Shown in pieces: positions 1-64,000 of a stretch of DNA of 64,000 bases. A program made the translations under genes and the position numbers. Each line of letters opens with the position of its first letter. Within the stretch, counting starts at the first letter, position 1. The stretch is taken from the NCBI RefSeq assembly GCF_000006565.2, contig NC_031479.1:2878289-2942288 (forward strand), given 5' to 3'. Below the pieces are notes generated by a model that searched no databases, was not told where the DNA came from, and saw only the letters and a list, made by a program, of their open reading frames with translations. The DNA is from Toxoplasma gondii ME49. Taxonomy: Eukaryota > Apicomplexa > Conoidasida > Eucoccidiorida > Sarcocystidae.

Positions 1-1004
1 GGGGCCGCGTCGGCGCCAGCGGCAAAGGCGTCGACGTCCGAATCGCTCTCGACACGAAGATGCTGAAAAAAGTCAGGTAGGGGGGGGGACACGAGCGAAA
101 AAGAGGATGTCCGTCTCCAGATGGTCCATTTGTTTACAAAGGAGATTTGGAAAGACGGAAACGCATCCTTCCCAGGACGCAGAGACCCTCTCCAATGCTT
201 CCCTGTGTGCACTTGTGCGCTCTAGGAGGTGAGTCTCCACCGAAGAGGACGAGACAACAGAGGGACGCCAGGAAGAGCAGAGAGAAAGAGGAAGCCAAGC
301 AGCGACCCAGGATAGCAGCATAAAGTCGCAGTGTCTGAGAAGCGTTTGAGCTCACGTCTTCGGGGGCCCAGAGCAAGCCGCTTGCCTTGTGATGTCAAAA
401 CGGGCGCCACTCCCTTCCTACAGCCTTCCCTCTCCGCCTCTCCTCGCCTCACGTAGAAATCAAAGCAGTGCCTACCTGATGCTCTTCCTCCCCCTCTTCC
501 TCTTCCACTTCTTCTTCCTCTTCCTCCCCCTCTTCCTCCACTTCTTCTTCTGCTTCTTCGGCGCCGCCTTCTTCTTCCTCGTCGTCGTAGAACTGCCAGG
601 CGTCTCGCGGCAGCGCTTCTTCGCCGGGTGTAGGGACACCGCGGTTCGCTTCTTCTCTGCGGCGGCGCTTCGCCTCCTTCCGATCCTCCCACCAGCGATG
701 GGTCAACTCGTAGGCGCAGAGGACGCAGAGCATGACCAGCAGGTTCACGTACTTCAGATATCGCGGCCCGACACTCGCTGCATGCGCGAAAGACTCTGGC
801 GCCACAGACGACCGGCCCCGCGAGTCGAGCTCGTCGGTCGCTTCGCACGTCTCGCCAGCTGTCTCCGAAAGAAGAGACAGCGACGCGTCCGCCGACGCAG
901 CGCCCGCCTCCAGAGACACTTGCGCGTTTACGAAATCTTCCAACAAGCTGTCGATCAACGCCGTCTCGCGCAGGGCCTCCAACGGGGGCGCCGCAGGCGA
1001 TTTG
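1..1004 (-). CDS. 3'-truncated acidic single-pass membrane protein (two exons visible)
   Basis: Two coding exons are visible on the minus strand: 476-1004 (acceptor ttttttcag before 1004, donor CAG|gtagg at 476) and 1-62 (acceptor ttttttcag), joined in phase 0. The downstream end lies outside the window and the upstream exon with the start codon was not found. The larger exon holds a leucine-rich helix, a hydrophobic segment around KYVNLLVMLCVLCAYEL flanked by basic RKEAKRRRR, and then a long Glu tract. This suggests a single-pass membrane protein with an acidic face. A GGTGT-N4-ACACC palindrome (627-640) is translated as GVPTP. I do not recognise the family. It lies head-to-tail behind the TH1-like gene. 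Confidence 0.5.
627..640. repeat. GGTGTAGGGACACC coding copy
   Basis: Intact GGTGT/ACACC arms with centre AGGG, inside the coding exon 476-1004; read on the minus strand as GVPTP. Confidence 0.85.
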
Positions 1005-1432
1005 CTGAAAAAACCATGACCTCCCCAAATGAATAAGTGAGTCGAGCTTCATACAGAAACCGCGATTTCTAATACTTGAGAAAAGCTTTTCAAGTCCACC
1101 TTTCCAAGGAAGTCTCGATAACTTGAGCGTGACATGAAAACGCGCCCTTCCTCTCACAGGTTCCCGAGGACTTTGCGTCAAGGCCGATCCACTTCTTCCT
1201 CACTCGTGGTGTCTGGGTTCCCCACGAAAACGTTCCACAAGATATGCACGTCCTGAGGACTAAATATACACAAACATACTGCGGAAAGTTCAATTATCTA
1301 TCTACCTCTATCTATATCATCATCTCTCCATATCTCTCTTCTCTCTTCGTTTGTGTGTGTGTGTACGTGGAGAGCTCGTGAATAGGTCCCCAGAGAGATG
1401 CGAACTACATCTGCATCTGTACAACTCTGTGT

Positions 1433-1562
1433 TCACAGCGAATCGCCCCAAGGGGCCCCCCCACTTTCGACCTGCGCACCGCAGGAACCGCTTCGACACA
1501 AGTCCACTTCATTTTCAGGAGGCCGTCGCAGCTGCCGCGGCTTCTCCACCGCCGCCGACTGT
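1433..1562 (-). other. Possible alternative 3' exon of the TH1-like gene
   Basis: The TH1-like reading frame meets TAA at 1578-1580, immediately inside a perfect donor (CTCCG|GTAAG). An acceptor (ctctgcag) lies only 19 nt downstream, and the sequence after it stays open for 42 codons to TGA at 1433 in matching phase. A 19-nt intron would be exceptionally short, so I take 1578 as the stop and flag this as an alternative C-terminus. Confidence 0.25.
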
Positions 1563-1577
1563 CTGCAGAGCCGATTC

Positions 1578-4500
1578 TTACCGGAGGCGCTGGTATTCGA
1601 AGTCTCGGGCGCGACAAGTTCCGTACTGAGAGGCAGAGGGCAAGTCGAGGACGTCGGCGCGTCGAGCTGCACGTTCGTCTTCGAGTCTCGCTACGCCAAG
1701 CTCCACGTACCTCCGCGGGGCCAGCTGCTTTCCACGTCCGCTGCAAAGTCGACTCTCCCCTCGACTCTGACCGTCCTCACAAAACGTCTTGCCGCTTCCC
1801 CTCCCGTATCCTTGGTCCGCCGCCAAGACGCTTCCCTCCGCGTCGCCGAAGCCTTCGCTGTCGACGTGCGACCCGTCCGCCTCGGACTCCGCCGTCATCC
1901 TCGGGTGTATGTACACTTCGTTCGTGTCGACCACCGCAGCTTCGCCCGCCGGGTGTACGTACACGTCAACAGACGCGCCCGGTTCTTGTTCGCGCGCGCC
2001 CCACGCCGGCGCCGGACGCACTTCGCCTTCGACTTCGACGCGTTCGCCCTCCAAGTGTCTCCGGTCTCCGGACGCGAGGCCTGGCGGCACGGCGCCGAAG
2101 ACTTTCCCTTTGCCCAGGCCGGCTGGCGAGAAGGCGGGATGCAGACTTCTGGGGGTTGCGGCGGAGAGAGAGGACGAAGCGAGAGAAGAAGAGAGGAAAC
2201 TCGAGACGTCGCTCGCCGCCTCACCAAAGGCCGACGCAGTTCCAGAAGACTTCTCGCTCGCACTGCTGACTTCGCTCTCGCCGCGGTCCCCGCCGGCGCC
2301 TCGCGGCGGGAACGCCTCTCTCAGCTGTACAGACGCCCCGGTGCTACGCTCGCCGAAGCTCTGCCGAGACAGTGGCGCGGAACATTTCCCCAGTCCGCCG
2401 GCGGAGACGGCTGCAGAGGAGGAAGGCAGCCGCGGAAGAGAAGAAGGGTGCTGGAGTCTCTGTCTCTCCCCTTGTTCGCCTCCGAACGCGAAGGGTGCCG
2501 GCGAAGAGAGCGAAGAAGAAAGAGAAGAAGACAGGGAAGAAGAAACAGAAGAAGAAACAGAAGAAGAGAGGAAAGAAGAGAGAGAAGAAGAGGGGGAAGA
2601 GGAGACCGCTGAAGAGACTTCGCTGGCATTCGAGTCCGAGTGGAGAGACGTCCCCGAAGGAGAACTCACAGAAGAACGCGAAAGCGAGGACGTAAGCGAC
2701 TGCACTTCTGCTTCAAGGTCCGCCTCTCTCTGCTCTGTCTCCGACTGGTGCTGAGGAAAAAACGCTTTTCCTCTCCCTTCGCCGACGCCTGGTCCCTCAA
2801 GCGCTCTCAAGCGCCCTTCACCCCTACATTCGCCCTCTCCCTCTTTACTCAAGTCGAATTCTGAGCCGTGCAGACTCCCCATCATACCACGCCCCGTCTC
2901 CCCGCGTCCTTCTCCGTCTCCTTCGCCTTTTTGTTGGCCTCGGCGCCGCTTCTGCCGGGCCTTGAGTTCTTCCTCCCATGACAGAGCGGCAGCTTCACTG
3001 GGGACGTTGAGCGTCTGTGCCTCGGCGCGGCCGGAGTGCCCTCTGTGGTCTTCAAAGGCTCCCTCTCTCTCCAAGTTGTCTGTGAAGAATTCAGAGAGGG
3101 CCGTCTCGTCTCGGCGCTCGTACAGCAGTGTCTTCATCGACTCAAAGGGGCGCATGCATCGATGCAACAAGTCGCAGAGTTCGCATGCGTCGTATGGAGA
3201 CAGCCGCACGTCAGCGCCCACGAAAATCGAACGCGTCACGCTACGGAACAACTCGTCCAGCTGCGGGTATCTGCGCGAGGAAGCGAGAAACACAAAAGGA
3301 AAGACACACGGAAAAGAACAAAGACGAACGAACTTAGTCGAAAACGTGAGAAGAAAAAGACGGCGGGAAAAGAGACGAGCCTGTCTCTCCCAAGTTGTTC
3401 TCCTTGCCCATTTTGTCTCCACCTCTTCTTCTTTTTCTTCTGTTCGGTCTCTCTGCCACTCTCTCCCCTTCTCGCAGGTTCTCTTTTCCCCTCCCAGATC
3501 CCCTTATTTCTCTCTCCCGCCCCTCTCATGTCCCCCCTTTTCCTCAGTCTCTATCTTACTGATTTAAGTTCGTCATGAGAAGATACAGCTGAGCTGCAGA
3601 GACTTCGCGTTGTCTGTGAACGCTGGACGCCGCTGCACATGCAGCGCTTGCTGGCGACTCTGAAAAATCGAGTGTCGCGTCCTCGACGAGAGTCTTCGTC
3701 TCGAGGTCCTCCGTCTCCTTCACGACCTTGAGCAGCTTTTGCTCTGCCTCTTCTTGCTCTTTCAACAGCTGCTCCATTTTCCTCGAACGCTCTGCATTCT
3801 TCTCTTCTCCCTCTCCGCTCTCTCCTCTCTCTCCGCTCTCTCCTCTCTCTGCTTCCATCTCCTCGTCTCTCTCCCCCCGCAGCCCCTCCGTCTCCGCAGC
3901 GCCAGGCGAAGAACAGCCAGGCGACAGAGAAGCAAACGGAGAAGCGGAGGACGAGGCGAGCTGTTGCGTGCGTTGCTGCAGTTGTTGAAGACGGATTTGC
4001 AGACCTTGTTTCTCTTCCTTGAGCTCCTGCAGTCGTTCCAGGCGCTGCCTCTGAGAGCGGCGAACACGCTTCTCGCGCTCCACTTCTTCTTCGCTCGACT
4101 CTCCGACGTTCTCTCCTCTCAGATGAGAAGGCGACGGAGGCAGCCGCGGTTCGGCCATCACGGCCCGCGTCAGAAACTGTGCAAGACGTCGACAGCCCCG
4201 CAGATCCGGACGCCAAGACGCAATAAACACCAGCAAAGCCAGTGCGTAGAAGAAAGCGTTCTCTGAAAAAACATGTACCTCCGCAAAAACGGCAACGCAC
4301 CCATGCCAGCTCACCTTCGTAACGGATGGTCCACAGACATTCACATCACCTACATGTAATATATATATATATATATATAAACAGTATACACATATGTATG
4401 TTCATAAATATATATATATGCATGTATATATATATATATATATGCAAGTATGTATAGAACGAATGCATACACAAAAACACATGCATTTTCGTCTATGTGC

Positions 4501-8540: not shown

Positions 8541-8554
8541 GGTGTACGTACACC
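8541..8554. repeat. Perfect GGTGTACGTACACC palindrome next to TH1 start
   Basis: A perfect 14-bp palindrome ending 20 bp upstream of the TH1-like ATG (on the minus strand) and therefore in its 5' UTR or promoter. It is the archetype of the dispersed element described in the findings. Confidence 0.9.
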
Positions 8555-9099
8555 CGAAGGCGAAAACGAAAAGGGAAGAGGCGTCGCGACAGAGAGAGAG
8601 GGACAGATACATAGTTTCGACTCCCTACGCGTCCTTGTCACTTCTGCATCCCGCGGACGCCAGACACGCGCAGGCTGAGAGACACAACGAGGACTGCCGC
8701 CGCAGAGAACGGACGCAGAAGCCGGAAGAGCGGCGGCGAGACGTAAGACCAAAAGCTGCAGGCCCTGCGCAAGGAGAGGAAAAAGGCGCAGGCGACAGAA
8801 GAGGAGACGGAGACAGGCGAGGCGAAAGAGACAAATCGCGCGAACGCACTCTGGGAGGGTTAACAGAATAGCAAAAGGAGAGACGGCTGAACAAAGACCG
8901 ACAGGCAGAAAGGATACCAGTGGAGAGCTGGCCTCGACGTCGGCTTCCTCGTCCGAGAAACAAGCGAGAGGCATCTGCTGAACTCGGTAGTTCTTCCCAG
9001 TGCATGTCGAGAAGAGAAGTCCAGACAAGAAGGCGGAAGAGGACGTCTCTTTCGCCGCCTTCTGGAGGCAGCCGTGGCGCCGCTGGCGCTCGACCGTGA

Positions 9100-9113
9100 G
9101 GTGTACGTACACC
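9100..9113. repeat. Perfect GGTGTACGTACACC palindrome
   Basis: Second exact copy of the 14-bp palindrome, about 560 bp upstream of the first, in the same divergent 5' region. Confidence 0.9.
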
Positions 9114-10776
9114 TCACTCGAGTGGCGACCGTCGAGGAGAGGTGAAAAATCCAGCAGGCAACGGCGGCTGGGGAACCCAAGCTGGGAACGTTCGTTTTTT
9201 GAGATCTGCTCTTCCGTATTTTGCGCCGCCAAGGGGGGGAGAGATCACACGCACGCGAGAGAAGGCGACCCCCCGGAGAGTCTTGCTTTCAAGAGAGAAG
9301 CGAAACCGAGAGGAGACGACAGTGAGGACGGAAACAATGAGAAACGAGGAAACTGCTGGCGACAAGTGAGAGTCAGCGAGAGAAGTCGGACGAGTGCCTT
9401 TTGTGTTTCTGTGTGTCGCTACGGACGTTGGAAATGGCGAAGCAAGATATCCGCGGCTTTTCACATCTTTATCGTCACGAGGAAGGAGAAGGGAGAAGCC
9501 TCTTTCGAGTTTTTTTCGTCTCGTGCCTGAAAAGCTGCTGACGCCGTTTTCTGTCCTGCAAAGTGCATGCACTCTCCTCGGCTAATCTGAGATTTGCAGC
9601 AAATCGGGCGCGACTAGCCAGACAGCAGCACGCAGCACACCCCCCTCTGTCTGCCATCCCTGCGCGAGAGGTCGAAGCCGATTTTCAGGCTGCAGTAAAT
9701 CGGTTCTTTTCTTTCGTCTTCCTCGTTGAGTGGTTTTTCTTCTCGGAACTCTCCAGCTGTCTTCGCTGCGCTGGCTTGGGAGGAACGAGAAAGGACGCTG
9801 GCGCCGTCTCGCGCTTCACGAGCCTGTCGCTGCTGTCTTTCCTGCACTTCCATTCTCTTTTTCTCCATTTCTGTCGCCTTCTTCACTCCAGCACGCTCCG
9901 AGTTCCTGCGTTCTCACGCCTCGTTACGTCTCCGCCTTTGCGCGAAAAAGAGCGACCTTCTCCTGCACATCGGAGCGGCGGACTCCTATAATAACGCCTT
10001 CTGGACGCCGGCTCCTGTCGCCACCCGGCGGACGCAAGGCCAGCTCACCAGCTCTCTTCTTGGCTTCTCGGATTTTTTAGAGGTCCTCGGAAGAAGGAAA
10101 GGACGGAGAGAGTGCGAAGAAAAAAGAAACGGTTCCACGCTTGCGTCTTGTCCGTTTTCTTCTCGGGTCGTTGCTCGTTCGTATCTACCGTCGCTGCCCT
10201 CTCACTCTCGCTGCCAAGAAGACAAGAAAAGAGACCCTGGCAACGAAAACAACGCGAGGCCGAGGAGTCTTCTTCTGCCTTTTCGCCTTCCATGTGGTGA
10301 AACAAAAGAGAGGACAGAGAAGGACGAGTCGGTGCACACGACTTTGGTTTTTTTTCTCTTCGTTTTCCACCCTCAAGGGTCTTCCGTGCCCGCTTTCCAG
10401 GTGGACATACACCCCGTCGTCGTGAAGGGGGGACGTCGAGACCAGAGGGCAGAGACCGAGACACCGTCTTCGCAAACCCAGATGCACGCAAGAATCTGCG
10501 TTTTCGGAGTGACTGAATCTTTCTCTCCGCTAGGGCGAGCCTTCACACTCCGTACGAAAGGAACAAGGGATCGTCTGCATCTCCAGCTGTCTGAGGGGAC
10601 ATACGTGGAAGCCAGTGAGCATGTCTTTCGCCTTCCCTAAGTACTGGACAGCGAAACTTCCTCGCTCTCCGTTATCTGGTGCTCATCTTGAGGTTCGCCT
10701 TCGCCTTCTCTGAAAACAGAATCCAAAGCGTCCAACAGGCATCTCCGCTTCTGCGCCTCTCAGTGTGTGTTCCTGG

Positions 10777-10790: not shown

Positions 10791-11103
10791 CGACCTGTCT
10801 GGAGGCGCACACCCCGTACTCGATCTGAGATGTACGTACACCCGAGTGTGTCCCTGCGCATGCAACATGTAGCAGTGGCACCCCCGAAAACGCAGCTTCC
10901 CGGTTTGCAAGGTTCTCTCCTTTTTTCGGTTCGTCTCTTTCCTGCCGTCCCCCTTTCTCTCAGTTTCGCCTCGTTTCCGTTTCCTCTTGTCTTTCTCGCT
11001 GCATCCTTCGCCTGAGACCGCCTCACGCTCCTCGTCTGTGTGCGTCCGTCGCGACTGTCTCTGCTTGTTTGGGTCCGCATCAGGCGAGGACTGAAGAGAA
11101 AAC

Positions 11104-14100
11104 ATGACAAACGCGTACTTCTCGAGGGGCGGCGAGGAACGCCGACAGAGGAGTGGAGAGAGAGACAGAAAAGAAGGGAGTGCAAGCAGGCTAGGGGACT
11201 CTGAACAAGGCGAATGCTATCTCGACAGTGTCTCCCTCCAAGCCGCTTTCCGAGACTTCCAGAGCCGTGTCCCTCTCAAGAAACTCGTCAGCACGTACGT
11301 TACGCGCATGCAGCTATGCGGAGACAGGTAGAGGTGCATGCATGGTTGTATATCTATAGTTCACGTCTTTTTGCAGGACTCCGCAGATATGTACGTAGGT
11401 ATATACAGAAATTCATACCTACGTGAATGCATGCATACATACATGAAGACATAAGTGACCATAGTTAAGACTGCAGGTGTAACTGTTCCATTTTGTTTTC
11501 GTAGCGCATACAAGAGTAGTCTCGATGCCATATATGTATATATTATATAGAGATATTTATACATTTACATATATATATATATATACAAGTAAATAAGTGC
11601 GGATGGATGAACTTGTGTTTCGAGCGCTTCATTTTTTATCGTGTTTTGCAGGCAAAACGCACATCACATCTGGCAGTGGTATGAGCTGTGCGGAACGGAT
11701 CTTGACTGTGAGGCCTCGCCGTTGATTTCTTCTTCTCCCATCATTTTCCTCCATGGCGTGAACGGGACTGCCGCGATTTACTTTCAGCAGCTGGAGGCAC
11801 TGGCAGAGAAGGTGAGAGGCGCGTAACCAGAAGTTTTTCGCCAGCACGCAGTCCAAGGAGTTCGTCGATCGCAGCTTCGCTCGACTGTCCGTTGTCCTTT
11901 GTAGATTCCACGAGTTCTTGTTTTTTTTGGCCTCAAATCGGCGAAGCGAAGTTCCGTAGAATCTGGAAGTTTACTGTCGTTTTCGAAACCTCGTGCTCAG
12001 GAGAACACTCCAGACACGAGGCGGACCTCCGAATCGTTACAGTGCCTTGGACGTACACCTCCTGAGGAAGTCGCTGTTCCCTTCTCTCTTCTGGGTGGTG
12101 ACGCACACATCGACGTCTGTCCACTTGACGTCTTTCTCTGTCTCTCCCTGTAGTGAAGAGAGAGCGGCTCGAGGCTGAGAAGGCAGTTTCTCCACAGTGG
12201 CAGCGAAGGAGGAAAAACGCGCAAGGGCACAAGAGTCACTTTCTGCCAAGTCCTCCTTTGTCTGCGTTTGTCTTCCGCGTTGTTTCCTCTGCGCCCATTC
12301 CGGTGTTTTAGTCTGTAAACGAAGAAGCAACGTCCCGGTGTCTGAGGAGCTCGGAGTCGGCGCTCAGGATGTAAATCTTCGTCGACATACAGTGACTCCA
12401 GTTCCGCGGTGTACAGACACCCAAGTTCCTTTCTTCTGCTGTGCACGACTGTTTCTCTGCATTTCAGGGGTACAGAGTCTTGTCGGTGCAGTGGCCCGCA
12501 CTGTCTTCTCTCGCATCTTTCCTGTCTTCCTTCGACGAATTTCTGACTCACGTCCTGGCGACTCCGGCTGCCTCGCGGGTGCCGCGCTCTCGCCGCCGGC
12601 TTGTCTCCTCAGCCGCGGCGCGCGGAGACGGCGACGCAGGCGAGGGGCGCGTACGCCGCGGCGCGCACTTGTTCGGCGCAGGCCTCGGCGGCGTTCTGTG
12701 TCTGTACTTTGCTCAGAGGCGTCCAGAAGCCGTCGCAAGCGTCGTGCTCTGCAACGCCTTCCTGAATTCTGCGTTCCTCCTGGGGGCGCTCGCGCCTCTC
12801 CAAGGCGTCCTAGCTCCCATGTACCACCTGCTGCCGCATGCAGCGCTCAGAAAAATCATCATCGACACCTACCTCACCCCCAAGGCTGCCGCCGAGGCCG
12901 TCTTCGTCCCGCCGTCGGGTGTCTGTACAGGCGCACGCGGCAGGCGCGACGAGTCCCCAGAGAACGTCTGGGCGCCGTCGCAGGGAGAGGCAGACAGCCA
13001 CTCACAGGGCGTTTGGGTCGTTCCGCAAGAAGATCTGCAAATTCGAAACAGCAAAGAGTTCCTCGTTTCTCACCTCGACGAACTCAGCGCGAAGGAGCTC
13101 GCGGCGAGGCTCGCGTAAGGCAGAGAAGGCTTGCGCGCGTGTGGCCGCGTATTGAACTGCTGCGCTGGCGAAAAAAAGCGAGAAAGAGGGGAAAAGGGGT
13201 CGTGAAAGACTTCTGTTCCGCCCTGGACGTTCCGTCGTTCATGTCAATGCCTCTACGAGCATCTGTATATACAAATCTAGTTATATTTTTTCTATACATA
13301 CACATATATGTAGACGTGCATACACATATGTATGTTAGTATGGATGGATGTATACTGTGGGCATTCAAGCGATTGCGTGTGTGAGTGAGTGTATGATCGT
13401 TATTCGTTTGTGTAACTGTGACAGGTGGGTGGTTTTACATGTGTCATGTCTCGAAGTTTTGCGGGGACCTCTTCTGGATGCGTCGGACTCTGCTTCACTG
13501 GCGGTGAGGTGAGCGTTGAGGACGTCTCTTGGTATCTGGAAGACTGTCTGAATTCTCCTTTCTGGAGTCTCTGATGCGCGCAGCTTGCAAGTGGCGATAA
13601 GCGCCGCGACACCGTTGCAGAAAACGCCCGAAAGAGTCCTCATTCTGCAATCCCTCGACGCCGACGTTCCTCCCGATGTCGCCGAGGATCTGCGGAACTT
13701 GTACGTGGAACTCAGGTGTACATACACTTCAAACGCTACACCTTCCCAGCTACACATATGTGGCGTATCTCTCTTGTACACATGGAGACTTAAAAATACA
13801 TCCAGATATCTACATATATTTATATTTATATGTGTATACTTGCATATGCCATTCATGCATGGATCTGCGCATATATACATACATATACATACACACATAC
13901 ATATATATATATATGTATATATATATAAGTATATGTATATTTGAATGCCACGATGCATGCAAATGTGTGTGTCTCTGACAGTCTCTGCGTTCGCGTGAGC
14001 AGCGAGGTGCGCAGTGTTTGTAATCGTTGACAAGAACTTGGCACTCGTCGGTCCTTTTCGCATCGTTTGCGCGTTCTCTGGCGCAGTGTTTGCGATTCTC

Positions 14101-17222: not shown

Positions 17223-20102
17223 TTGTTAGCATGTGGAGAGAAGGGGACTTTGGCGGTGAGAGCGAACTCTGAGATTCCCTGCCGAAACGAGAACTGAGAT
17301 GGTTTCGAAAGTACCTGTGAGACGCGTTGCTCTGTCGAGCACAGCGCTGCACTCTGTCAGCTGGTTTACAGGCATGCCCGCGAACAGAGAGACGGAGAGA
17401 AGCGCAGGAGGAGGCGCCAGTGAAAGCGCAGAAACGCCGACAGAAGAGGCAGAAGCGGAGGAAGGCGAGGAAGAAGAAGAGGAGGAAGCCGGATCAGATA
17501 CGAGAGGGAGGAGAATCGAGGAGACATCGGAGGGAGACAGAGAAGAGTCAAACGGGAGTTCTTGCAGTTTGCTGCGCGCATAGGCGACACCCTGAAGAAC
17601 GGAGAAGGAGGAAAGGCAGAACTCGATTAAGGAGGGGAACTGGAGAAACGAACTCCTCTCCCTTCATATCGTTCGATTTCTCGGCACCTACCTTGGTGAC
17701 GCTGGGCATTCTGAGGATACTTTTGAGCGCAGCGAGGGGAAGAGCGCGACAGGCGAAGAGAGCGCTTCTCGAGGCTTCCGACGCATGCAGCGACCGTGGA
17801 CTCGCAGGCGTCGCCTCCCTGTTCGTACACCGCGAAGGATGAAGGAAACTGGAGAGAAGAGGATGGATTTCCTGGAGAGAAGAGGAAAGCGAGAGACTCC
17901 CCGGAGGCACGAAGCCGAACAAATGCCGCAGCGCCTCGTGCGTGTAAAATCCGCGTTCCGCAAAAATGCAACAACACCGTAAAACCTTCTCCGTCAGATG
18001 CGGCGGAAACTGAGGGAGCTGAAAACCAGAAGCGAAAACAACAAATCATGAGAAAGGTCGGAAAGAGAGGCGCAGGAAGAGCAGAGTGAGTTCGGGAACA
18101 GTGTGGAGATTTACGGAGACAGAGACAGGCCGAGGACACAAACGAGTCTCTGAAAAAAAGCCGAGGAAAAAGAGGTAAAGGAACGAGAGATAAGCAAGAG
18201 ACAGAGGGAGAGAAGGAGATACAGAGAAGGCGGAAGAAGCTGAGATTTGAGGCTCCGACTAGCTCGAGAGAGAGGCATCCCAGAGAGAGACATGAAGTTG
18301 ACAGGCAGTCGCGCCCGTGCATGCGCTTTGAAACAGATCGAGGCGTATGAACACCGTGAACTTTTTTGGGCGAGAAAGCTGAGGCACGAGACTCAACTGC
18401 GAGTTACAGAAACAAGGAAGTGTTGTTTCGGAGCAGAACTCTGCGCGGAGAGCCTTCGACCCTTCCCAAACGCGGAGACTTTGTAAACTCAGTAGACGAA
18501 CTCAGTGAAGTTTGCCCATCCTTGAAACAGGGAAGAAAGCCTCCCTGCAACTGGCTTGACGCCTCGTTTTTTTTTTCTTCTCTCAGAGTCGCGCCGTCAG
18601 TTCGCTGGCTTCGTTCCTCTGCAACGCGGAGAAGCGCGGAGGACTTTGACTTCCTCGACTCACCATCTTGACGAAGGAGACGAGGAAGACGTAGAAGCCC
18701 AAGTCGCCGAAGCGTTGACTCGCATGCGGCGGGAGGTGACCGGACGCGCAGCCTTCTTCTGCAGGGGCAGAAGGCGCAGCAGCCGGCTGGTGAAGAAGAT
18801 GGTGAAACAGATAGAAAATCGAGAGGCGAGTTACTGCAGAAACATTCGGTTTCTGCAGCTCCTCTGCGAAGATGTGCACCAGCCGCGCGGAGTCCGCCGC
18901 CAGAAAGGGCATCAGGAAATTCGCCAGCATCTCAATCGCTGCCTGAGCACCCAGCATGGCGAAGATGGAAAGAATGAAGCGGCAGAGACATGCGCAGTCT
19001 CGACATCGACAGAGAAACAACATCGTGAAGATCGCTCATCAAAAGAACTCCCCATCTGAAACCTCCGAAGAAAGACGCGTATACACGAAACCATGCTTGC
19101 CTCTACTTACGCACATATGTCTACATCCATACCTATATGCATGCACATATATATATGTATACATATACACATATATGTATATATATATATATATGAAAAT
19201 ATATACATATGCATGTTTACATGAGAAGGTGGACATCCTGAATACATAGATTCATGCATATACTTGTATATATATATATATATGGAGGTGACGAGATGCA
19301 ATTCCTGGCACATATTCATCTTCAAATGCATGTGCATCGATGAACGTAGGCAAGTGAGTACGACTGGAAGCCCAGTTGCAGGGGTGTTTCTTGGGGAGCG
19401 TACCTGTCGGTTGTCGAGGCGTCTGAGTTGCTGACGAATGGATTTTTCTGGAAAAGCTTCTTCTGCCTCGAGCCGCGACGCGCTTTCCTGCCCTCTTTCT
19501 TCGGCGCCCCGCTGCTCTGCGCTTCCCTTCAGGCTGCCGTGAAACGGCTCTCGCAGCGAAGCCATGCGAGCCCCCATGCTTGCCGCGTCAAGTGGAGCAG
19601 CAAAAGGCGCTGAGGTCGAAGAAGAAAGAGAAGAAGGAAGCGAAGAAGGCACACGCGAAGACAGAGACGAGAGCGAAGAGAGCGAAGAGAGCGACGCAGG
19701 GTGATACGAAAGAGAGGAGAAGGATACTGCAGAAGCAGCTGGCGGGCCGTCACCCTGAAAAATTGCAGGCCGCTTTAGAGAAGCAGCAGGCGCCGCTTGC
19801 CAAGGAGGAGTAGGGAGAGAGGTTGAGAAAGAGAGAGCTTCGGGCGTCGCACTGCATGCCGGCTGTTGGGGTGTATGGACACTGGAAAAAGAAGCTGCAG
19901 GGTCCACAACGGGGGGAGGCGGACCGGGTGTAGGGAAAACCGATTCAGCAGGAAACGAAAACGCGTTTCCTGACGGAACCGCAGAGGCTGAAAAGGAAGG
20001 CGAAGAAGCACCGGGATCGCCATCGTCAGAAATTGGGCTAAAGTCCGCATACGCTTCCCCACCTCCAGGTGGAGGGACACCCAAACCGAGACCCGCGGAC
20101 AT
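16595..20102 (-). CDS. CID-domain protein, RPRD1/Rtt103-like
   Basis: Exons 19404-20102, 18664-18942, 17692-18018, 17315-17591 and 16595-16923 are phase-consistent and encode 636 aa from an ATG at 20102. The first about 210 residues are Pro/Ser-rich disordered sequence. A CTD-interacting domain follows across exons 1-3: FPEKSIRQQLRRLDNRQ, then AAIEMLANFL, RLVHIFAEEL, and RLSIFYLFHHLLHQ in place of the usual LxxLYLxNDxxxx helix. The last exon is a charged coiled coil (SALAEE...REEREKTKRGRK), as in RPRD proteins that dimerise through a C-terminal coiled coil. CID proteins bind the phosphorylated RNA polymerase II C-terminal repeat and act in termination and 3' processing. A palindrome variant (20068-20081) is translated GVPPP near the N-terminus. 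Exact subfamily is uncertain. Confidence 0.68.
17140..17222. repeat. TA microsatellite in last intron of the CID gene
   Basis: ATACAT units followed by a long uninterrupted (TA)n run between exons 4 and 5. Confidence 0.75.
19135..19285. repeat. TA/ATAC microsatellites in first CID intron
   Basis: Two (TA)n blocks separated by about 50 bp of ordinary sequence in the intron between exons 1 and 2. Confidence 0.7.
20068..20081. repeat. GGTGGAGGGACACC coding copy of the palindrome
   Basis: One-mismatch copy inside exon 1 of the CID gene; on the minus strand it encodes GVPPP. Confidence 0.65.
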
Positions 20103-35400: not shown

Positions 35401-37190
35401 CTGGCGATTTTGCGTGGACATGCAGCGAGGAGATGCCGGGGCAAGGTGTGGACCGCTTGGCCTTGGAAGAGCAACCGCCCAGGAGGCGTCTCAACAGCAG
35501 AATGGGTGTTTCCATTGCAGTCACTGGAGCTGTTTTCTGGGCACTCGGGGCTGGTGCGTGGGCTGGCCTCGCGCGTCTCCTCTCTCTCCGGCGCCTGGCC
35601 TCCGTCTTCTGCTGCGGCGCCTGCAGGCGCAGACAGACTTCTTCTTCAGAAGCGAGAGAGTTGCAAAGAAGACCCAAAGACGTTTGCGGAGAGGCGCGTT
35701 CAAAACGTAGTCTCTCGAGACGCGGAAACAAGCGCGCGGCGCGCTTCATCTTCCGATGCGCATGCACGGACGTCGACCACCAGGCCTCGTGTCTGGGGTT
35801 GGCCGAGCAGGGGGGCAACCTGGGCGTGGAGCTGGGCCTTGCTGGGGAGAACAGCTTGGACCGGAGAGTCAGGAAGGACCGTGCGTTTCTGCGCGACGAC
35901 GCAGCGGTACCAGACGTCGGCGGAAACGTCCTGATCTTCTTCAATCCGAATGCGGGCTACCTGGAGACCGCTGCAGTCATCGGCGATGGCGAACTGAACT
36001 TTTACCGGAGTCGAGGCGTGAGCGTTCTCCTCTTCAACTACAGAGGCTTCGGACGCTCCGCCGGAAAGTCCAGTCCCGCGTCTCTGCTCTCCGACGCAGC
36101 GGCTGTCTACCGCTTCGTCGCCTCGTGGCCGGGTGTACGTACAGTCGGCGTCCACGGCAGGTCGATCGGAGGCATGCCCGCGATCTTCCTCGCCCTCAGG
36201 CAGCGATACATTCGGCGCAGGCTCCTCGCCTCCGACTTGCCGCTGGCTCTCTCCCCTGATTCAGACTCTTCTCCGTGCTTGAGAGAAGCACTGGGCGTCC
36301 CCCGCATCTCCTTCCTCTGCGCGGATCGGACCTTTTCCTCTCTCCCGGACGCGGCGGGGGGCCTCCTTGGCTCCTGGGCCTACTGGGGTGTACGGGGAGC
36401 TGCGTTGACAGCACACGTCGGCTTTTCGCTCTCGCGCTTCTTCTTGGGCGCGCGGAGGAGACAGATGGCGGTTCGGGAGAAGGAGAGCCAGCGGCAAGGA
36501 GACGGCAACTCGCGCGGAGACCCCCTTGCGGAGCCCAGCCGCTTCGTCAAGGTGTCTAGACACGCTGGCGAGGCGCGAAGCGAGGAGACAGACGCGGAGC
36601 TGGAAGCCGGCTCTCTGGATGAAGACGCCCGAGAGGCCGCCCGGAGCTGCCGGCTCGGCGCGAGAAGTGTGCATGCGTTTCTCGCATGCACCAACGTCCA
36701 CAAAGTGCTCATCGCCGACCCCCAGGACGAGGTCGTCCGCGACGCAGCGTCGCTCAAGGCCGGCGTCGCTCGCGCGCTCCTCACGCGCCGCCGGGAGACC
36801 ACACGCCGGGCCTTGGTGCATGCGCTGATGGCGGAGCGCCTGAAGGTCCGGACAAGCTTCGCGGGTGGCTTCGAAGACCGGACAGACAGCGACCCTTCTC
36901 TGCCCTCGGCGCCGCTCCTCGGAGAGGCAGCCGAGAAGGAAGGCATGTGCGTACAATTGGCAGGAGGCGAGAAGCCCGGTGGGGCTCGGAGGCTCCAAAC
37001 TGCATGCAGCGACGCTCGCCGGCATGCCAGGGGGGCAGGCGTCAGCGGACCGAGGGGAGACAGCAGTTCGAGCAGCGAGGAAGAGACTCACGCTCTCTGC
37101 AGACGAAGAGCCACGCGTGTGAGGAGAAAGAGACAAGGGGGGAAGGTGGAGACAGCGCGGTGGAGGAAGCAAGAGAGGAAATCGAACTGA
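32433..37190 (+). CDS. Giant ABHD16/BAT5-like alpha/beta-hydrolase
   Basis: An unbroken frame from ATG 32433 gives 1585 aa; no intron is required, though short ones in the disordered parts cannot be excluded. Residues about 48-86 form long hydrophobic membrane helices, as in ABHD16 lipases. The hydrolase core lies near the C-terminus: VLIFFNPNAGYLE (oxyanion, like the NAGFYE of ABHD16A), LLFNYRGFGRSAG, and the nucleophile elbow VHGRSIGGM with Ser at about 1244. ADPQDEVV holds the likely acid at about 1432. The catalytic His is not obvious; one candidate is in RALVHALMAE. About 1100 aa of Ser/Arg/Glu-rich sequence separate membrane and catalytic parts. ABHD16A is a phosphatidylserine lipase; substrate here is inference. 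Palindrome copies are read as EVYVHS (35282) and GVRT (36132). Confidence 0.65.
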   Translation: MSVRFGPLFFARLRACFLSCSKWVLAPVCRALKPAVASSVRFAAANAFPLVLCCGFFAVFLLFLFLFSFFCSVLIGGLFASFFALAVLYNITTAMLFPGSSAFFRRQLELQFCSAAISPFKTHIGVLERLLSFLLYQAYLRETSEWGSERHDACERTATQRLRPSEFHDEASPPASAHLPEVPRARPFVFPRWPAVTSLPPSPASFLSSSAPTRPSSSLPQDPRGACEASASRLRLLAPFPPPLLLAPERSPSLSAGGSRAVPWLPTSAAALPEELVTDLTVAEVRESCLALSSLLRTMECARRKIRENDSASSPAAGSPGRSLAASDAERAESAREPLSKKSPGDSFEDIELSVAPADLWDGAPPPSAALGPQRLGADAAEESPAPEGAEREDAEAEKRPGVQLGWESEDTPRLASHQRGELTWQQEDVFYHGSQLLFHLMHLSVVVKPRASSSSSEKSRISLSHYSTESIAWPFLALLGLIKASPECSRHPTETWSPLRATPSSLDGDSLPGGLSDSTPDAVLRDPSLCASSLAPSPSPLPPPPLSASASQLALAGVACAGGDIESGRRPWGGRASRVEWPLFHCAAALFHLRQLLLFLSPHLPARSADARVRRRRSSADCAASDLGILDVPPLASLPRSLLRLLIPPPLSSFLLLAGELEETQGGTELWIPVSEAQALRLLLSAVLLPFALAKGTVCRWFTRGRGGARARHLLPDAGLEASRRLEAHGKTEEARALESRCEQKGGTRRGRDAALADLLKADASIAAPGTIGYGRRRLESSDVLQASLSLSADVSSSPSCAFPAKSSRWARRLGGRLGAWLDPERRLYLHAVFFPAPNTHWLLPSTAFASPPAFRSFSPCTPAAAQPFRACENACSRRLYTEANCLLPFVPVAASAGACACCRAPLELPHDADKPKSRLPSLSNSPRARLTYRLFLLYTQLQRQEQVEVYVHSGSDEETGGTAASRNLRSVGRGESRTLQRRERSGDSGDFAWTCSEEMPGQGVDRLALEEQPPRRRLNSRMGVSIAVTGAVFWALGAGAWAGLARLLSLRRLASVFCCGACRRRQTSSSEARELQRRPKDVCGEARSKRSLSRRGNKRAARFIFRCACTDVDHQASCLGLAEQGGNLGVELGLAGENSLDRRVRKDRAFLRDDAAVPDVGGNVLIFFNPNAGYLETAAVIGDGELNFYRSRGVSVLLFNYRGFGRSAGKSSPASLLSDAAAVYRFVASWPGVRTVGVHGRSIGGMPAIFLALRQRYIRRRLLASDLPLALSPDSDSSPCLREALGVPRISFLCADRTFSSLPDAAGGLLGSWAYWGVRGAALTAHVGFSLSRFFLGARRRQMAVREKESQRQGDGNSRGDPLAEPSRFVKVSRHAGEARSEETDAELEAGSLDEDAREAARSCRLGARSVHAFLACTNVHKVLIADPQDEVVRDAASLKAGVARALLTRRRETTRRALVHALMAERLKVRTSFAGGFEDRTDSDPSLPSAPLLGEAAEKEGMCVQLAGGEKPGGARRLQTACSDARRHARGAGVSGPRGDSSSSSEEETHALCRRRATRVRRKRQGGKVETARWRKQERKSN

Positions 37191-47742: not shown

Positions 47743-47872
<130 letters not shown>

Positions 47873-56119: not shown

Positions 56120-59095
56120 ATGGAGCAAACCGCGCGGGTTCCTCTTCCGACGGAAGGGAATGCGAGCGTTGACCCGCCTGCTGAGGCTCCTGGAATTTTC
56201 GCGCTGGCTCCCTTTCCGCTGTTTTTCTCTCGCCTCGAAGCGACGCTGTGCAACTGCCAAGACTCTCTGAGGTGCACAGGAACGAACAGAGGAAACCTTC
56301 AATTCGAGCAATCTACTCCTCGCGCGTCGAAGAAAACGCGACAGAATGAAGCCTGCTCTGCCGCCTCGCCGTCGGCCGCTTCGCCTTCGGTAACTTCCTC
56401 ATGGCGCCGAGGAGAGTTTCAAGCAGGTTCCACGACTGCCTTGCCCTCAGAGAGCGCAGCGAGCAGCACAGACGGACAAGCGTCTCCCCTGCAAGCTCGC
56501 GGATCCCGGAACATACCTCAAGAGACAGGGCGAGCGACAGAAGTTGCGGAGTCCGGCTCCCTCGTGTCGCTCTTCTGTTGCACTCGGTGGAAGCACTTCA
56601 GCCACAGAAAGCGGACAGAAGACGGCAGAGGGCAGCGGCCAGACGGAAGTCTTTCGGAGACTGTGGTGTCTGGAGAAAACAGAAGAGAGCCGCGGAGAAG
56701 CGCCGCGACGGGAAGCGGCGTGGTGTGTGGCCTGTTGGCTTTCGATGGCTGCGAGTTCCTCGAGGGCCGTCTGCTGTACAGACACCTGAATCCACATCTG
56801 TCTTGGAACGCTGAAACATGGGAGAGGCTCTTTTATGCTCTCACGAATCCAACATGGTCCGTCGGCGACAGCGGCGTCCCCACATCGGCAGGTCCTTTGT
56901 CTCCTGTCTCGGTCTCTCGACCCCGCACATCGACGCCCGTTGCTTCGCCTTCAGTCCACTCTGACGTGACTCTCTCAAGCTCGCCTTCGGATCGAGCGTC
57001 GAGCGTTCGGCTGCTGCTGCACCCGGTGGAACCTGGGGCGTCTGACGAGGATGTCTCTGAAAGGTTGTCTGCCGAGAGGCGAAGATCGCGGAGACCCACA
57101 GCAGGCGGCGGAGACTGGCGAAACAGGGGAGAGCAGAACGAGCTGGACTCCGCAACATCCCTGAGTGTCTCTTCTCTCCGTCATCCTCAGTCGTGCACCC
57201 CCGGCAATGCGCTGTCACCTGTCAGGACTCCCAACCGTCTTCCCTCAGCCTCTTCTTCCGTTTTCACAACTTCCTCTCCGACTGGGTTCTCCGTGTCTTC
57301 CCTCGCTGCACTTTCACGCGAACGTGAGTTTACAACCGCGCCTGCAGATCCGGCTTCTGAAGCTGTTTCGCAGGCGGACTCGCGGCGACCCGCTCGGGGT
57401 GTACGTACACCGCAGACGTACGCCTTGTCGCTAGTCATGGGCCTCAGCGACGCGTCTGAGGTGTACGTGCACCTGACCGCCCCGATCCGCCTGCATGCGC
57501 TGCCTGCCGCGACAGGAACGACGAAGCTTTTCACTGCGTCGCTGCTGCTCCAGCAGCTTCAGCTCCAAGAGCAAAAGCGGCTCTTCGATTCTTCGCACAA
57601 GTGCGCCGCTGCACTCGACGCATGCACGGCCGAGCTCGCCGAAGCTGCTGCGACTCGCGAGCGCCAGCAGCGCCGGCTTCTGCGCGGCATGTGCCTGCTT
57701 CTGAATTCGAAGAAAAAGCGACTTCGCGAGCTAGAGCGCGAACTCGAGGACCAGATGAAAATGCATGCATCCTCGGGACACCCTGCGGCCTCTGCGGCGT
57801 CCTCGGGGCTGAACAAGGATGCAAAAGAAACTCCGCTACATCGAGAAGCGAGCTCGAAAGAAGGATGTGATGACGAGACAGACCGTGAGGAAGGCGCAGA
57901 GGTGGCGTCGTCCAAGAACGGACGAATCAGGGGAGAGGCGGGGTTCCACCTTGCGTCTTCGCAGGTGGAACCATCAGGACTCAAACTCTCCGGTCGGGCC
58001 GACGGACGGCAGGAACGGTGGGGAGGGCCTGAACGACGACCCCCTTCGCTTTCCGGGGAAACAACGTCTCGCCAGGTGCTCCCTGAGAGGAGCGAGGAGA
58101 ATCCGACAACAGACGCAGGACCGCCAGGAGCAGAGTCGCATGGAGAGGACAGCGAGCGCGAGACTGTCGCAGAAGAGGACGAAGTGGACGAGTGCCTCCG
58201 ATGGGTGGCGCGGGAGGTGGGCTGGCGACCAAAGAAGCGGAAGCTCGTGAACATGAAGAAACACGAGGACAGAGAGGAACAGGGAAGCGCGGAGGGGCGA
58301 GAAGAGAACGCGACAAGAGTGGCTGAGGAGACACATGGGCAACCCGTTCCAAACGGGGACAGCGAAAGCGGAAGTAGTCAACAGTCAACGGAGACAGGCC
58401 CCGGCTTGGAGGGACGCCGGGACGCTCCCTCTAGGTCCGGCGTACGCGCTCTGGATGTCTCCACGTCGAGTCCGATTTCCGTCCTTTCCTCCGAGGCGAG
58501 CTCCTCGCCTTCTCGCGCCGCGCCGCCTGCTCGGAGTCTGCAGTCGGAGGGTATGTTGGAGGTGAGAGACAAGGACAAGTTTGCGGCTGCCTTTGCGTTA
58601 ATTGACGTGAAGAAGGAACCCGCGAGTGAGAGCGAGGACGTGCAGCTAGCCGAAGCTGGAGAGGAGGAAGACCCCCCTGGGGTCCGGGCATCGAGAGCTC
58701 CAACGCGTCAGCTGCGCTCGCGGAGAAGGGAGCGACGGCGCGTGGAGGAGAGTGAAGGAGAAGCGTCTGGTGGCGAGAAGGAGGATCAGCCCCGGGAGGC
58801 AGGTCTGCCGCCACAGAGCGGAGCAAGGAAGAGGTTGAGGTTGAGGCGGAGGCACTCAGCGAACGCGTGGAGAGAAGCGCGTTTGCCGAGTTTCGCTTCC
58901 CCGGGTGGGTTGGATGGTTCGCGGAGGAACAGCCGAGAGAGCGAGAACGCGACCGCGGGGCCACCAGAAGAAAGCGACAGTTTAGAGGAAACGCAGTGTC
59001 TGGGAGAGACACTCGAGGGGAACTTGACAGATGGAAACAGCCACGACTCTGAAACGAAGAAAGGTGGAAGAAGGCCGCGCAGACGCAGGGGCTAG
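56120..59095 (+). CDS. XRCC4-like non-homologous end-joining factor
   Basis: Single open frame of 991 aa from ATG 56120, just after a splice acceptor, so a 5' UTR or further coding exon may precede it. Head-domain strands resemble XRCC4: VVCGLLAFDGCEFLEGRLLY at about 203-222 (compare TLTDGHSAWTGTV), then NAETWERLFYALTN at about 231-244 (compare YVGELRKALLSG). After a disordered insertion of about 190 aa the head resumes with TYALSLVMG...EVYVHLTAPIRLHAL at about 433-461. A coiled coil (about 473-549) contains GMCLLLNSKKKRLREL, matching the diagnostic RFILVLNEKKTKIRSL stalk of XRCC4. XRCC4 dimers scaffold DNA ligase IV in end joining. The tail is Ser/Glu/Arg-rich with basic clusters (RPKKRKL, RRPRRRRG) suitable for nuclear import. 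EVYVHL is encoded by a palindrome copy (57460), GVRTPQ by another (57398). Confidence 0.58.
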   Translation: MEQTARVPLPTEGNASVDPPAEAPGIFALAPFPLFFSRLEATLCNCQDSLRCTGTNRGNLQFEQSTPRASKKTRQNEACSAASPSAASPSVTSSWRRGEFQAGSTTALPSESAASSTDGQASPLQARGSRNIPQETGRATEVAESGSLVSLFCCTRWKHFSHRKRTEDGRGQRPDGSLSETVVSGENRREPRRSAATGSGVVCGLLAFDGCEFLEGRLLYRHLNPHLSWNAETWERLFYALTNPTWSVGDSGVPTSAGPLSPVSVSRPRTSTPVASPSVHSDVTLSSSPSDRASSVRLLLHPVEPGASDEDVSERLSAERRRSRRPTAGGGDWRNRGEQNELDSATSLSVSSLRHPQSCTPGNALSPVRTPNRLPSASSSVFTTSSPTGFSVSSLAALSREREFTTAPADPASEAVSQADSRRPARGVRTPQTYALSLVMGLSDASEVYVHLTAPIRLHALPAATGTTKLFTASLLLQQLQLQEQKRLFDSSHKCAAALDACTAELAEAAATRERQQRRLLRGMCLLLNSKKKRLRELERELEDQMKMHASSGHPAASAASSGLNKDAKETPLHREASSKEGCDDETDREEGAEVASSKNGRIRGEAGFHLASSQVEPSGLKLSGRADGRQERWGGPERRPPSLSGETTSRQVLPERSEENPTTDAGPPGAESHGEDSERETVAEEDEVDECLRWVAREVGWRPKKRKLVNMKKHEDREEQGSAEGREENATRVAEETHGQPVPNGDSESGSSQQSTETGPGLEGRRDAPSRSGVRALDVSTSSPISVLSSEASSSPSRAAPPARSLQSEGMLEVRDKDKFAAAFALIDVKKEPASESEDVQLAEAGEEEDPPGVRASRAPTRQLRSRRRERRRVEESEGEASGGEKEDQPREAGLPPQSGARKRLRLRRRHSANAWREARLPSFASPGGLDGSRRNSRESENATAGPPEESDSLEETQCLGETLEGNLTDGNSHDSETKKGGRRPRRRRG
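57398..57411. repeat. Perfect GGTGTACGTACACC inside XRCC4-like exon
   Basis: Exact copy within coding sequence, read as GVRTP, at the junction where the disordered insertion meets the last head-domain strands. Confidence 0.9.
57460..57473. repeat. GGTGTACGTGCACC inside XRCC4-like exon
   Basis: One-mismatch copy 62 bp after the previous one, read as VYVHL within a predicted beta-strand. Confidence 0.85.
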
Positions 59096-62000: not shown

Positions 62001-62400
62001 TCAAAGACACAACCTTCTCTGCATTTCAAGTTCTCCAGAAGTATGGAGTGACAAACGCACTTTGTTACCCACCAAGGTAAAGATGCCCCTGAGAATGCCT
62101 CCCCAGGTGTCGAGACACCTGCGTGCTTGCTGAGCTCGAGGAAAGTCAATTTCCCTCCCGCCTCCGAAAGGGGAGAGACAGGCCGAGCCCATCCGAGGTC
62201 TCTCGGGTTCCTCCCGTCTCTCCCCCCTCTCTTTCTCTCTTCTTTCTGCTGTCTCCTGGTTCCCTTCGCTTCGCTTTTAGACTCGCCTTGGCTCTTCTCC
62301 TCCTCCCCTCTCGGTTCTTCGTCGTTTTCGATCTCCTTCTCTCTGAATCGCCTCTCTCTTGGAGGGTGTCGGTGTCCTTCTCGTCCTCTGCCCTCCCCAA
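59096..62400. other. Unresolved region
   Basis: Downstream of the XRCC4-like gene I see no confident gene. Short open stretches with protein-like composition occur on both strands around 60249-60440 (+), 60834-61241 (- and + overlapping) and 61446-61730 (+), and a possible 39-nt exon follows a good acceptor at about 62040. They could be exons of the gene that continues to the window end or of an unknown gene, but no chain could be phased. A perfect-armed palindrome lies at 62106-62119. Confidence 0.35.
62106..62119. repeat. GGTGTCGAGACACC dispersed palindrome
   Basis: Perfect palindrome with centre CGAG, identical to the copy at 48117-48130. Confidence 0.85.
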
Positions 62401-62721
62401 CTGGTTCCGCATGGCTACCAGGGTGAGTATCACGATACGGAGGCCACCGATGAGTCCCTTGAACATTTCAGTACACCCTTCTGGTCTGCTTCTAAGACCG
62501 TCCCGATCTCTTCTGTCGCAAAGTCCACGACAACGATCGACCAAGAAGACTCCACGCTGGAGAGAGAAGAACAGTCCACTCCCTTCTGCACCGCCTTCTC
62601 CTTCTCCTTTTCTTCTGCGGAGACACGCGACAGGCTGCTGGACGGCGTTTGCCTTCGAGCTGGTGTGTTGACTCCCGCGTCGCCTGCCTGAACTTTTTTG
62701 AGAGGAAGAACTTTGCCGCTT

Positions 62722-64000
62722 ATGGAGACAGAGCCGCCGGCTCTTCCCTCAGGACGCCTTCGGGAACTGTCCGTCTTTCTCGACGGAGACGCGAGGGGAG
62801 AGGCTGCGTTGCTGAGAGAGAAGAAACGCCTTGCAGCGACCAGCTTTGAGCCTGAGCCAGGTGTCTGTACACCTGACGCAGCTGTCACCTCGCCTCCGAT
62901 TCGCTACGAAACGACACTGTTTTCTTCGCTGCCTGGAAGCCCCAGCGTAGCTGCAGAGCCGCTCGACTCTACCTCTCCTGACACAGCTCTTGAGACGAAG
63001 GTCTTTCTGGAGGCGCAGTCTCGACGCCTCTCGCTTGCTTCCTTCGACCCCACTTCTCTCTTCCTCAGGTCTCCCCCTCTTTCTTCTCTCTCCTCGAGTT
63101 CTTCTCGCTGTTCATCTTCTTCCTGTTCGTCTTCTTCCCCTTCTTCGTCTTCTTCGTCTGCTTCGTCCGCTTCGTCTTCTGTCCACTCGCCTCGCAAGTC
63201 GATAGAGACTCTCTCTTCTCCCTCTGGGGCTTCTTCAGTGTACAGACAACCGCGAGCGAACGAGAGGCCCAGCATGAAGCGGCAGCGGCCGCCTGCGCTT
63301 GTCGTGCCTTCGGTGGTTCGCCATGGGGGCGCGGATCCTCGAGAGAAAACGGGGGGAGAGCCTTCTCCGCAGCGCGTCTCCCCGCAGCGCGTCTCTCCGC
63401 AGCGCGTCTCTCCGCAGCGCGGCCAGCACTCACGTTCTCTCCCGCCGCTGCCTCCATCGACAAGCCAGCGGATGCCCGACAGATCCGCACCCTCGGTCGC
63501 CTCACCGCGTTCTCTTGTCTCGACGAAAGGCGCCGCGAAGGGGGCACCGAAGGAACGCACTCCTGTTCGCGACGAACTCTCGAAGAGAAAAGAGAGAAAC
63601 GCAGATCTGCGAGCTAACTCAGCTGCCAAGGCAGCCTTGAGCTTCGCTTCGAACTTAGTGTCGAGTTCTCCTGGTGAGTCGTCGTCGGATGCGGGGTCGG
63701 AAGAGAATGTGAAGGTCTCCCCGAGGAAGAAGAAGGGCGGTTCCGCCGATGCGCTGGCGCCTTCGAGTTTGGGAGAGACGTCCACTTCTCTCCTGGAGAA
63801 GGAGAGCTGCGGCGCGAAGGAGGAGAGATGCGGTGTGAAGAAGCCTGGAGAGTCGCGAGGCAGAGGCGCAACTCGCACCTGCATGCGTTTGACGGTCTGT
63901 CAGCAGACCGCGCCGGCGCCGCGGTCGCCTCCTCCACCACGTCCGCATTTGATTCTTCCAGCTGTCTTGGGCGACCCGATTTTCAGTGTGGATTTGGATG
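62722..64000 (+). CDS. Ser-rich protein, 3'-truncated by window end
   Basis: An open frame runs from ATG 62722 to the last base (426 codons visible). It can be extended upstream by phase-matched exons of about 62475-62660 and about 62365-62422, so the true start is probably earlier. The product is rich in Ser, Arg and Pro, with a short Lys/Arg cluster (SPRKKKGG), four tandem RVSPQ pentapeptides (63367-63421) and a run of Ser/Ala repeats. No domain is recognised. The minus strand is also open over much of this interval (62904-63884), giving a Glu-rich translation; I prefer plus because it stays open to the window edge and has matching splice sites. Palindrome 62860-62873 is read as GVCTP. Confidence 0.42.
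   Translation, partial: METEPPALPSGRLRELSVFLDGDARGEAALLREKKRLAATSFEPEPGVCTPDAAVTSPPIRYETTLFSSLPGSPSVAAEPLDSTSPDTALETKVFLEAQSRRLSLASFDPTSLFLRSPPLSSLSSSSSRCSSSSCSSSSPSSSSSSASSASSSVHSPRKSIETLSSPSGASSVYRQPRANERPSMKRQRPPALVVPSVVRHGGADPREKTGGEPSPQRVSPQRVSPQRVSPQRGQHSRSLPPLPPSTSQRMPDRSAPSVASPRSLVSTKGAAKGAPKERTPVRDELSKRKERNADLRANSAAKAALSFASNLVSSSPGESSSDAGSEENVKVSPRKKKGGSADALAPSSLGETSTSLLEKESCGAKEERCGVKKPGESRGRGATRTCMRLTVCQQTAPAPRSPPPPRPHLILPAVLGDPIFSVDLD
62860..62873. repeat. GGTGTCTGTACACC element in last gene
   Basis: Intact GGTGT/ACACC arms with centre CTGT; coding on the plus strand as GVCTP. Confidence 0.85.
63367..63421. repeat. Four tandem 15-bp units encoding RVSPQ
   Basis: The unit CCGCAGCGCGTCTCC repeats nearly perfectly in frame; the other strand reads CGETR repeats. 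Confidence 0.85.

Follow-up and report, generated by a model that had tools for sequence, protein, structure and literature searches.

A dispersed 20-bp palindrome of Toxoplasma gondii, putative binding site of a symmetric protein dimer

The highly iterated palindrome HIP1 of cyanobacteria is an ungapped bacterial octamer, and the CTCF insulator sites of animals are non-palindromic. The SPE2 element of Plasmodium comprises two half-sites. PMC6631176 lists GGTGCAC (SPE2) as the site of Plasmodium SIP2, and according to PMC12190761 and PMC4537280 GnGTAC is the sequence recognised by AP2-G in Plasmodium and Theileria, with GTGTACAC as a probe. For Toxoplasma, 67 ApiAP2 proteins have been predicted, as stated in PMC12482157; motifs given there and in PMC2928733 and PMC6631176 are the GCATGC type (AP2X-7, TRP2), GCTAGC (AP2XI-5), CACACAC (AP2XI-4) and CAGTGT (AP2IX-9). 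The ApiAP2 set of this organism is large, and its defined binding sites are few. Here we describe a palindrome, GGTGT-N4-ACACC, that recurs in a 64,000-nucleotide stretch of the Toxoplasma gondii ME49 genome (C13:2878289-2942288; hereafter the window, meaning the whole stretch at its full length) and throughout the 65,284,747 bases of that genome. The original prediction, made from the letters of the window, had described a palindrome of 14 bp; that core is real, and the element is actually one of 20 bp, TSRGGTGTAY-RTACACCYSA, in which the core is embedded between two facing copies of the 10-bp half-site TSRGGTGTAY. Judging from its sequence, we consider, with a probability of about 0.72, that the palindrome is the site of a putative DNA-binding protein that would act as a symmetric dimer and serve as a nuclear regulator over gene clusters.

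Among the systems named above, AP2-G is likewise apicomplexan, and the commonest half-site of our element, GGTGTAC, includes GTGTAC. However, GTAC is not fixed here, AC standing at positions 6–7 in 48 of 100 half-sites (the 50 exact sites listed), and a strict AP2-G-type site with a GnGTAC core was rejected on this count; GGTGT, in contrast, is fixed, and a second half-site at strict spacing is required. The constancy of GGTGT is due partly to the construction of the pattern and partly to the weakness of other arms. The SIP2 site has a similar GGTG start, and in the palindromic arrangement at gap 4 a SIP2-type site was rejected as well, GGTGC-N4-GCACC occurring 80 times in the genome versus 57 in the control described below. 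The Toxoplasma ApiAP2 motifs share the organism, and GCATGC and GCTAGC also the palindromic form, but in the sources cited all are shorter than 20 bp and of other sequence. HIP1 resembles the element as a short palindrome present thousands of times inside genes and between them, and differs from it in that the Toxoplasma element is 20 bp long, has degenerate positions and forms pairs at 24–60 bp. With the CTCF sites it has in common thousands of long sites inside and outside genes. Searches of the open-access literature did not bring up the palindrome among the papers listed, a scope that unlisted papers, closed journals and reports giving a site only as a logo would escape; in their accessible parts, PMC12482157, PMC4537280, PMC12190761, PMC2688925, PMC2928733, PMC6631176, PMC8313237, PMC10781626, PMC10653792 and PMC12421964 do not give the site.

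Genome-wide, the exact core lies well above background, one of the points at which the original prediction could have failed: 1721 copies were counted versus 96 for the reversed pattern, which served as the genome-wide control. Allowing at most one mismatch gave 6619 and 2198, respectively, and hence about 2800 one-mismatch sites above control. The gap of 4 bp is strict. A gap of 3 is not enriched genome-wide (56 versus 79), a gap of 5 yields 95 versus 63, with 13 of the 50 gap-5 sites listed belonging to a repeat on four small contigs, and the gaps from 0 to 15 other than 4 yield 0 or 1 copy each in 264 kb; the direct repeat at gap 4, counted on both strands, is not enriched either (220 versus 261 in the control). 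GGTGTGTGTGACACC, a word with gap 5, is found on the small contigs C50, C225 and C227 at intervals of mostly ~940 bases, and this tandem repeat looks unrelated to the palindrome.

Within 314 kb, consisting of the window and 250 kb beside it, cores that were exact or carried one or two mismatches numbered 20, 43 and 150, versus 0, 6.5 and 99 under a Markov model. When all palindromes with 5-bp arms and gaps of 0–20 were ranked in this region, GGTGT-N4-ACACC came first, TA-rich words excepted. The 10-base GCATGC-type form GCATGCATGC was, with the same exception, among the palindromes ranking next, far behind (8 versus 0.82 expected). The eleven exact copies that had been named for the window are all present, compared with 0.01 copies on average and never more than 1 in 100 dinucleotide shuffles of the window, and with at most one mismatch there are 31 sites versus 0.93 expected. 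The 6-mers near the sites are mostly GC-rich words, and non-coding sites lie in slightly GC-richer DNA (0.537 versus 0.503). For the sites as a whole the surroundings are GC-richer (0.59 versus 0.53), which might suggest chance or composition; that explanation is practically negligible, since dinucleotide shuffles, Markov models and the reversed, re-spaced and direct-repeat controls all give far lower counts.

Base preferences were read from 60 exact sites with their flanks, 20 from the 314 kb and 40 from loci at which two sites form a pair (see below). Outside the arms, 73 of the 120 half-sites have T at position −3, 110 have C or G at −2 and 93 have A or G at −1; inside, 100 have A at position 6 and 111 have C or T at position 7. 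The same preference is seen genome-wide, where exact cores flanked as T...A number 408 (control 8) versus 8 flanked as A...T (control 2). The centre of the palindrome varies while the arms are fixed, and across the dyad neither the flank bases nor the centre, positions 6/9 included, show significant covariation, which implies that each half is read by its sequence and not by pairing with the other. For a 20-bp matrix, 46 sites (at most one core mismatch) from 20 pair loci beyond the 314 kb served as the training set; this matrix found 63 places of at least 12 bits in the 314 kb versus 2.1 in order-3 Markov sequence, and 29 of them fall in the window. Core half-sites standing alone outside palindromes are not enriched (69 versus 78 expected). 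The two GGTGT blocks lie 9 bp apart from centre to centre, slightly less than one helical turn, and thus on approximately the same side of the helix. The element is accordingly made of inverted half-sites at fixed spacing, and these are base-specific, are read independently and have degenerate flanks, which supports the dimeric protein site first proposed for it.

The alternative then offered was a structural element, for which a hairpin in transcripts, with a GGUGU stem and a 4-base loop, may be considered. All five single copies tested fold well (z −2.07 to −3.76), although such folding is expected of any palindrome. The compensated stem GGTGC-N4-GCACC, the sole variant counted genome-wide, is hardly enriched, as the above figures show; 6 of the 150 two-mismatch sites are compensated, about the chance level; and significant covariation is absent from the 60 sites. 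What is kept is the identity of the bases. These observations speak against the hairpin, which we hold to be very improbable. Rfam gave no match at the gathering score in the window, and a transfer RNA identity was rejected.

Exact sites tend to occur in pairs. Measured from start to start, 19 pairs were found at 20–50 bp, 7 at 51–81 bp and 1 at 82–112 bp, whereas about 1.4 per bin are expected at the genome-wide density of exact sites. Spans of 24–60 bp account for 25 of the 27 pairs (about 1.7 expected) and spans of 37–60 bp for 21. These figures were obtained after series with a 21-bp step (C3 645945, C6 983467), tandem arrays (C14 5865723-5866600, C14 6655521-6655798) and the duplicate C12 5385965 had been left out by eye, which removed 12 of 31, 11 of 18 and 6 of 7 rows from the pair lists; the pair loci used are 20 of the 26 remaining pairs up to 81 bp, and 6 of these 20 score as coding. 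A partner of at least 8 bits lies 20–65 bp away from 11 of the 53 strong sites of the 314 kb; the rate at this distance is 0.0023 per base, compared with 0.0005 at 66–400 bp and 0.0003 overall. The 7-mer CAGGCCG is present at 8 of the 20 pair loci versus 1.2 expected, a figure uncorrected for the number of words tested.

Several of the arrangements left out deserve a description of their own. At C3:645945-646021 four palindromes follow each other in series at an exact spacing of 21 bp, about two helical turns, with differing spacers, and at C6:983467-983501 two palindromes lie exactly 21 bp apart. At C14:6655521-6655798 units repeated in tandem at a 33-bp step include several in succession that have an intact palindrome, apparently an amplification of the site, and C14:5865723-5866600 consists of tandemly repeated GGTGTCTGTACACCTGG-like units, some of which have decayed cores. 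That at least two tandem arrays carry the palindrome would agree with a single dispersed repeat or mobile element having left all copies behind as its fragments or footprints. An all-against-all comparison of 83 stretches (the 63 sites and 20 pair loci, with up to 250 bp on each side) nevertheless produced 19 matches where 83 random stretches produced 16, both sets being overlaps of neighbours or short weak matches, and the arms are fixed while the centre varies. No longer repeat surrounds the stretches compared, in agreement with the original prediction, and we regard an origin from such a repeat as highly improbable.

The position of the copies relative to genes was assessed in the 314 kb with a home-made and crude coding map trained on 23 long open frames, in which coding sequence makes up 23% of bases. 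Coding sites are 6 of the 20 exact and 20 of the 43 one-mismatch copies; unadjusted, these 26 of 63 represent an excess (p 0.0014), exact sites alone giving p 0.43. The palindrome is thus dispersed beyond one gene compartment, in exons and outside them, as had been noted for the window. Many coding copies encode V-x-x-H or G-V-x-T, and protein-level selection for a recurrent peptide (VYVH, GVxTP) could be imagined as the cause. Against it, the 29 copies in coding-scored segments use all three codon phases (16 as V-x-x-H, 11 as G-V-x-T and 2 in the third) and both strands, and 14 of the 20 exact copies lie outside coding segments; a peptide motif is ruled out for the bulk of the copies examined and is extremely improbable as a general explanation.

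On a larger scale the copies are regionally clustered on some contigs. The 48 sites listed on C1, with the last of them taken as the contig end, are overdispersed in bins of 5–100 kb, to an extent matched in none of 2000 simulations, and so are the first 29 sites listed on C2 in bins of 10–100 kb (p 0.0005 to 0.0115). The window, with 11 exact sites against a genome mean of 1.69 per 64 kb (6.5 times), is a hot spot, though one singled out for exactly that richness, and within it the exact copies are unevenly spread, with none between 21435 and 48116. Such clusters, as well as a distribution between coding and non-coding sequence that roughly follows local GC, would suit a chromosome-maintenance signal independent of genes, i.e. 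one for replication, recombination or cohesion, or an iterated palindrome kept by repair or conversion. We consider this possible but unlikely: the degenerate flanks and the broad one-mismatch tail recall the graded affinity of a protein more than an exact enzyme site, and the paired spacing suggests cooperative occupancy, neither point being decisive.

Several observations weigh against a dimeric regulator of gene clusters. When matched for GC, 34.1 of the 63 sites (9.5 of the 20 exact) would be expected in coding sequence, while 26 (6) were observed, so that copies there are, if anything, slightly fewer than expected. The crude gene map shows no clear promoter bias of the kind expected for a classical transcription factor; 7 of 37 non-coding sites lie at most 250 bp from a predicted coding segment, on its 5' side, compared with a random fraction of 0.076. 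GCATGC, which occurs 264 times in the 314 kb (0.84 per kb), stands within 500 bp of 41 of the 63 sites versus 34.0 expected (p 0.052), without clear co-occurrence; for one-mismatch sites alone the figures are 30 of 43 versus 23.2 (p 0.034), and no enrichment is found within 50–200 bp of sites. On C3 clustering is not significant (26 sites, p 0.085 to 0.49; the three of 29 listed sites that belong to the 21-bp series were left out). Extended half-sites standing alone are modestly over-represented (15 versus 8.2 in Markov and 9 in reversed sequence), and single halves may be used at some places. Finally, in the window gene 312830, described below, the Neospora residues differ at both exonic sites in an otherwise conserved block (protein level).

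If the palindrome is the site of a symmetric dimer, each subunit would read one 10-bp half-site TSRGGTGTAY in double-stranded DNA, the two half-sites facing each other at a spacing without freedom, and sites paired at 24–60 bp would bind two dimers cooperatively. The reader would be a nuclear regulator, an ApiAP2 protein or another transcription or chromatin factor, and might act on expression or chromatin over gene clusters, beyond single promoters. We infer that a promoter factor would account for exonic copies and regional clustering no better than a chromatin-level factor would. A more specific proposal, which we regard as improbable, is that an architectural or domain-setting factor of coccidia has the palindrome as its address and marks domains by pairs of dimers, regardless of exons and introns; clusters of tens to ~150 kb between sparse stretches would then have an insulator-like role as in animals. 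CTCF is not known from this lineage. The palindrome offers a ready bait for its putative protein and a list of sites with which to question existing maps of chromatin immunoprecipitation and accessibility. Since copies lie partly in exons, a DNA-binding site may constrain protein sequence.

The 29 places of at least 12 bits in the window are given below; positions are those of the window, no strand is assigned, and the score is that of the 20-bp matrix.

624..643, exact core at 627, 20.7 bits, inside a minus-strand segment scored as coding
1901..1920, one-mismatch core at 1904, 23.0 bits, in a minus-strand segment scored as coding (EVYIHP)
1949..1968, one-mismatch core at 1952, 22.5 bits, in the same coding-scored segment as 1901 (DVYVHP), 48 bp away
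2321..2340, weak copy found by the matrix only, 14.0 bits
7126..7145, one-mismatch copy, 16.6 bits
8538..8557, exact core at 8541, 29.0 bits, ~20 bp upstream of a minus-strand ATG at 8521-8519 (by eye)
9097..9116, exact core at 9100, 30.0 bits, inverted repeat perfect across 20 bp
10397..10416, one-mismatch copy, 20.5 bits
10774..10793, exact core at 10777, 29.8 bits, partner 10826 at 52 bp
10826..10845, one-mismatch copy, 25.0 bits, partner of 10774
12405..12424, exact core at 12408, 22.2 bits
12915..12934, weak copy found by the matrix only, 12.6 bits
13712..13731, one-mismatch copy, 24.4 bits
15259..15278, one-mismatch copy, 15.6 bits
15902..15921, exact core at 15905, 14.1 bits, flanks poor
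19867..19886, one-mismatch copy, 20.7 bits
20065..20084, one-mismatch copy, 14.0 bits
20180..20199, weak copy found by the matrix only, 15.9 bits
21418..21437, exact core at 21421, 26.4 bits
24035..24054, one-mismatch copy, 17.1 bits
35279..35298, one-mismatch copy, 20.9 bits, in an open frame of 1601 amino acids (EVYVHS)
36129..36148, two-mismatch core at 36132, 17.7 bits
40108..40127, one-mismatch core at 40111, 23.6 bits
48114..48133, exact core at 48117, 19.0 bits
56770..56789, one-mismatch copy, 19.3 bits, encodes LLYRHL
57395..57414, exact core at 57398, 27.9 bits, in the coding frame of gene 312830 (GVRTP), partner 57457 at 62 bp
57457..57476, one-mismatch core at 57460, 24.7 bits, in gene 312830 (EVYVHL), partner of 57395
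62103..62122, exact core at 62106, 16.4 bits, coding in one analysis and unlisted as coding in another
62857..62876, exact core at 62860, 25.8 bits, in a segment scored as coding

Ten further places had originally been described as near-perfect. Nine of them indeed carry one mismatch (that given as 40112 being 40111), while the tenth, 36132, carries two; the core at 36551 has one mismatch yet remains under the 12-bit cut of the matrix.

One open frame of the window is 98% identical to the T. gondii MAS protein, gene 312830, of which relatives occur at 84% in Hammondia hammondi and at 51% in Neospora caninum. At the sites 57398 and 57460 of this one gene Hammondia has, at the protein level, GVHTP and EVYVHL; the former fits GGTGTACATACACC, in which the free centre would have changed and the arms would have been kept. 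LLYRHL, encoded by the copy at 56770, is identical in Neospora, and this copy may therefore be due to chance. Searches for protein relatives of two other window frames gave no match, Toxoplasma included, probably owing to low-complexity sequence. Pfam searches with nine window frames returned only matches below the cut-off, two of hydrolase type and one coiled coil; the former are the weak matches of the plus-strand frames 12396-13118 and 32385-37190 to Abhydrolase_1 and Hydrolase_4. An open frame of 211 amino acids on the minus strand (28682-29317), without a Pfam match, has an apparent signal peptide and more hydrophobic stretches (by eye), and resembles small proteins of the secreted or dense-granule type.

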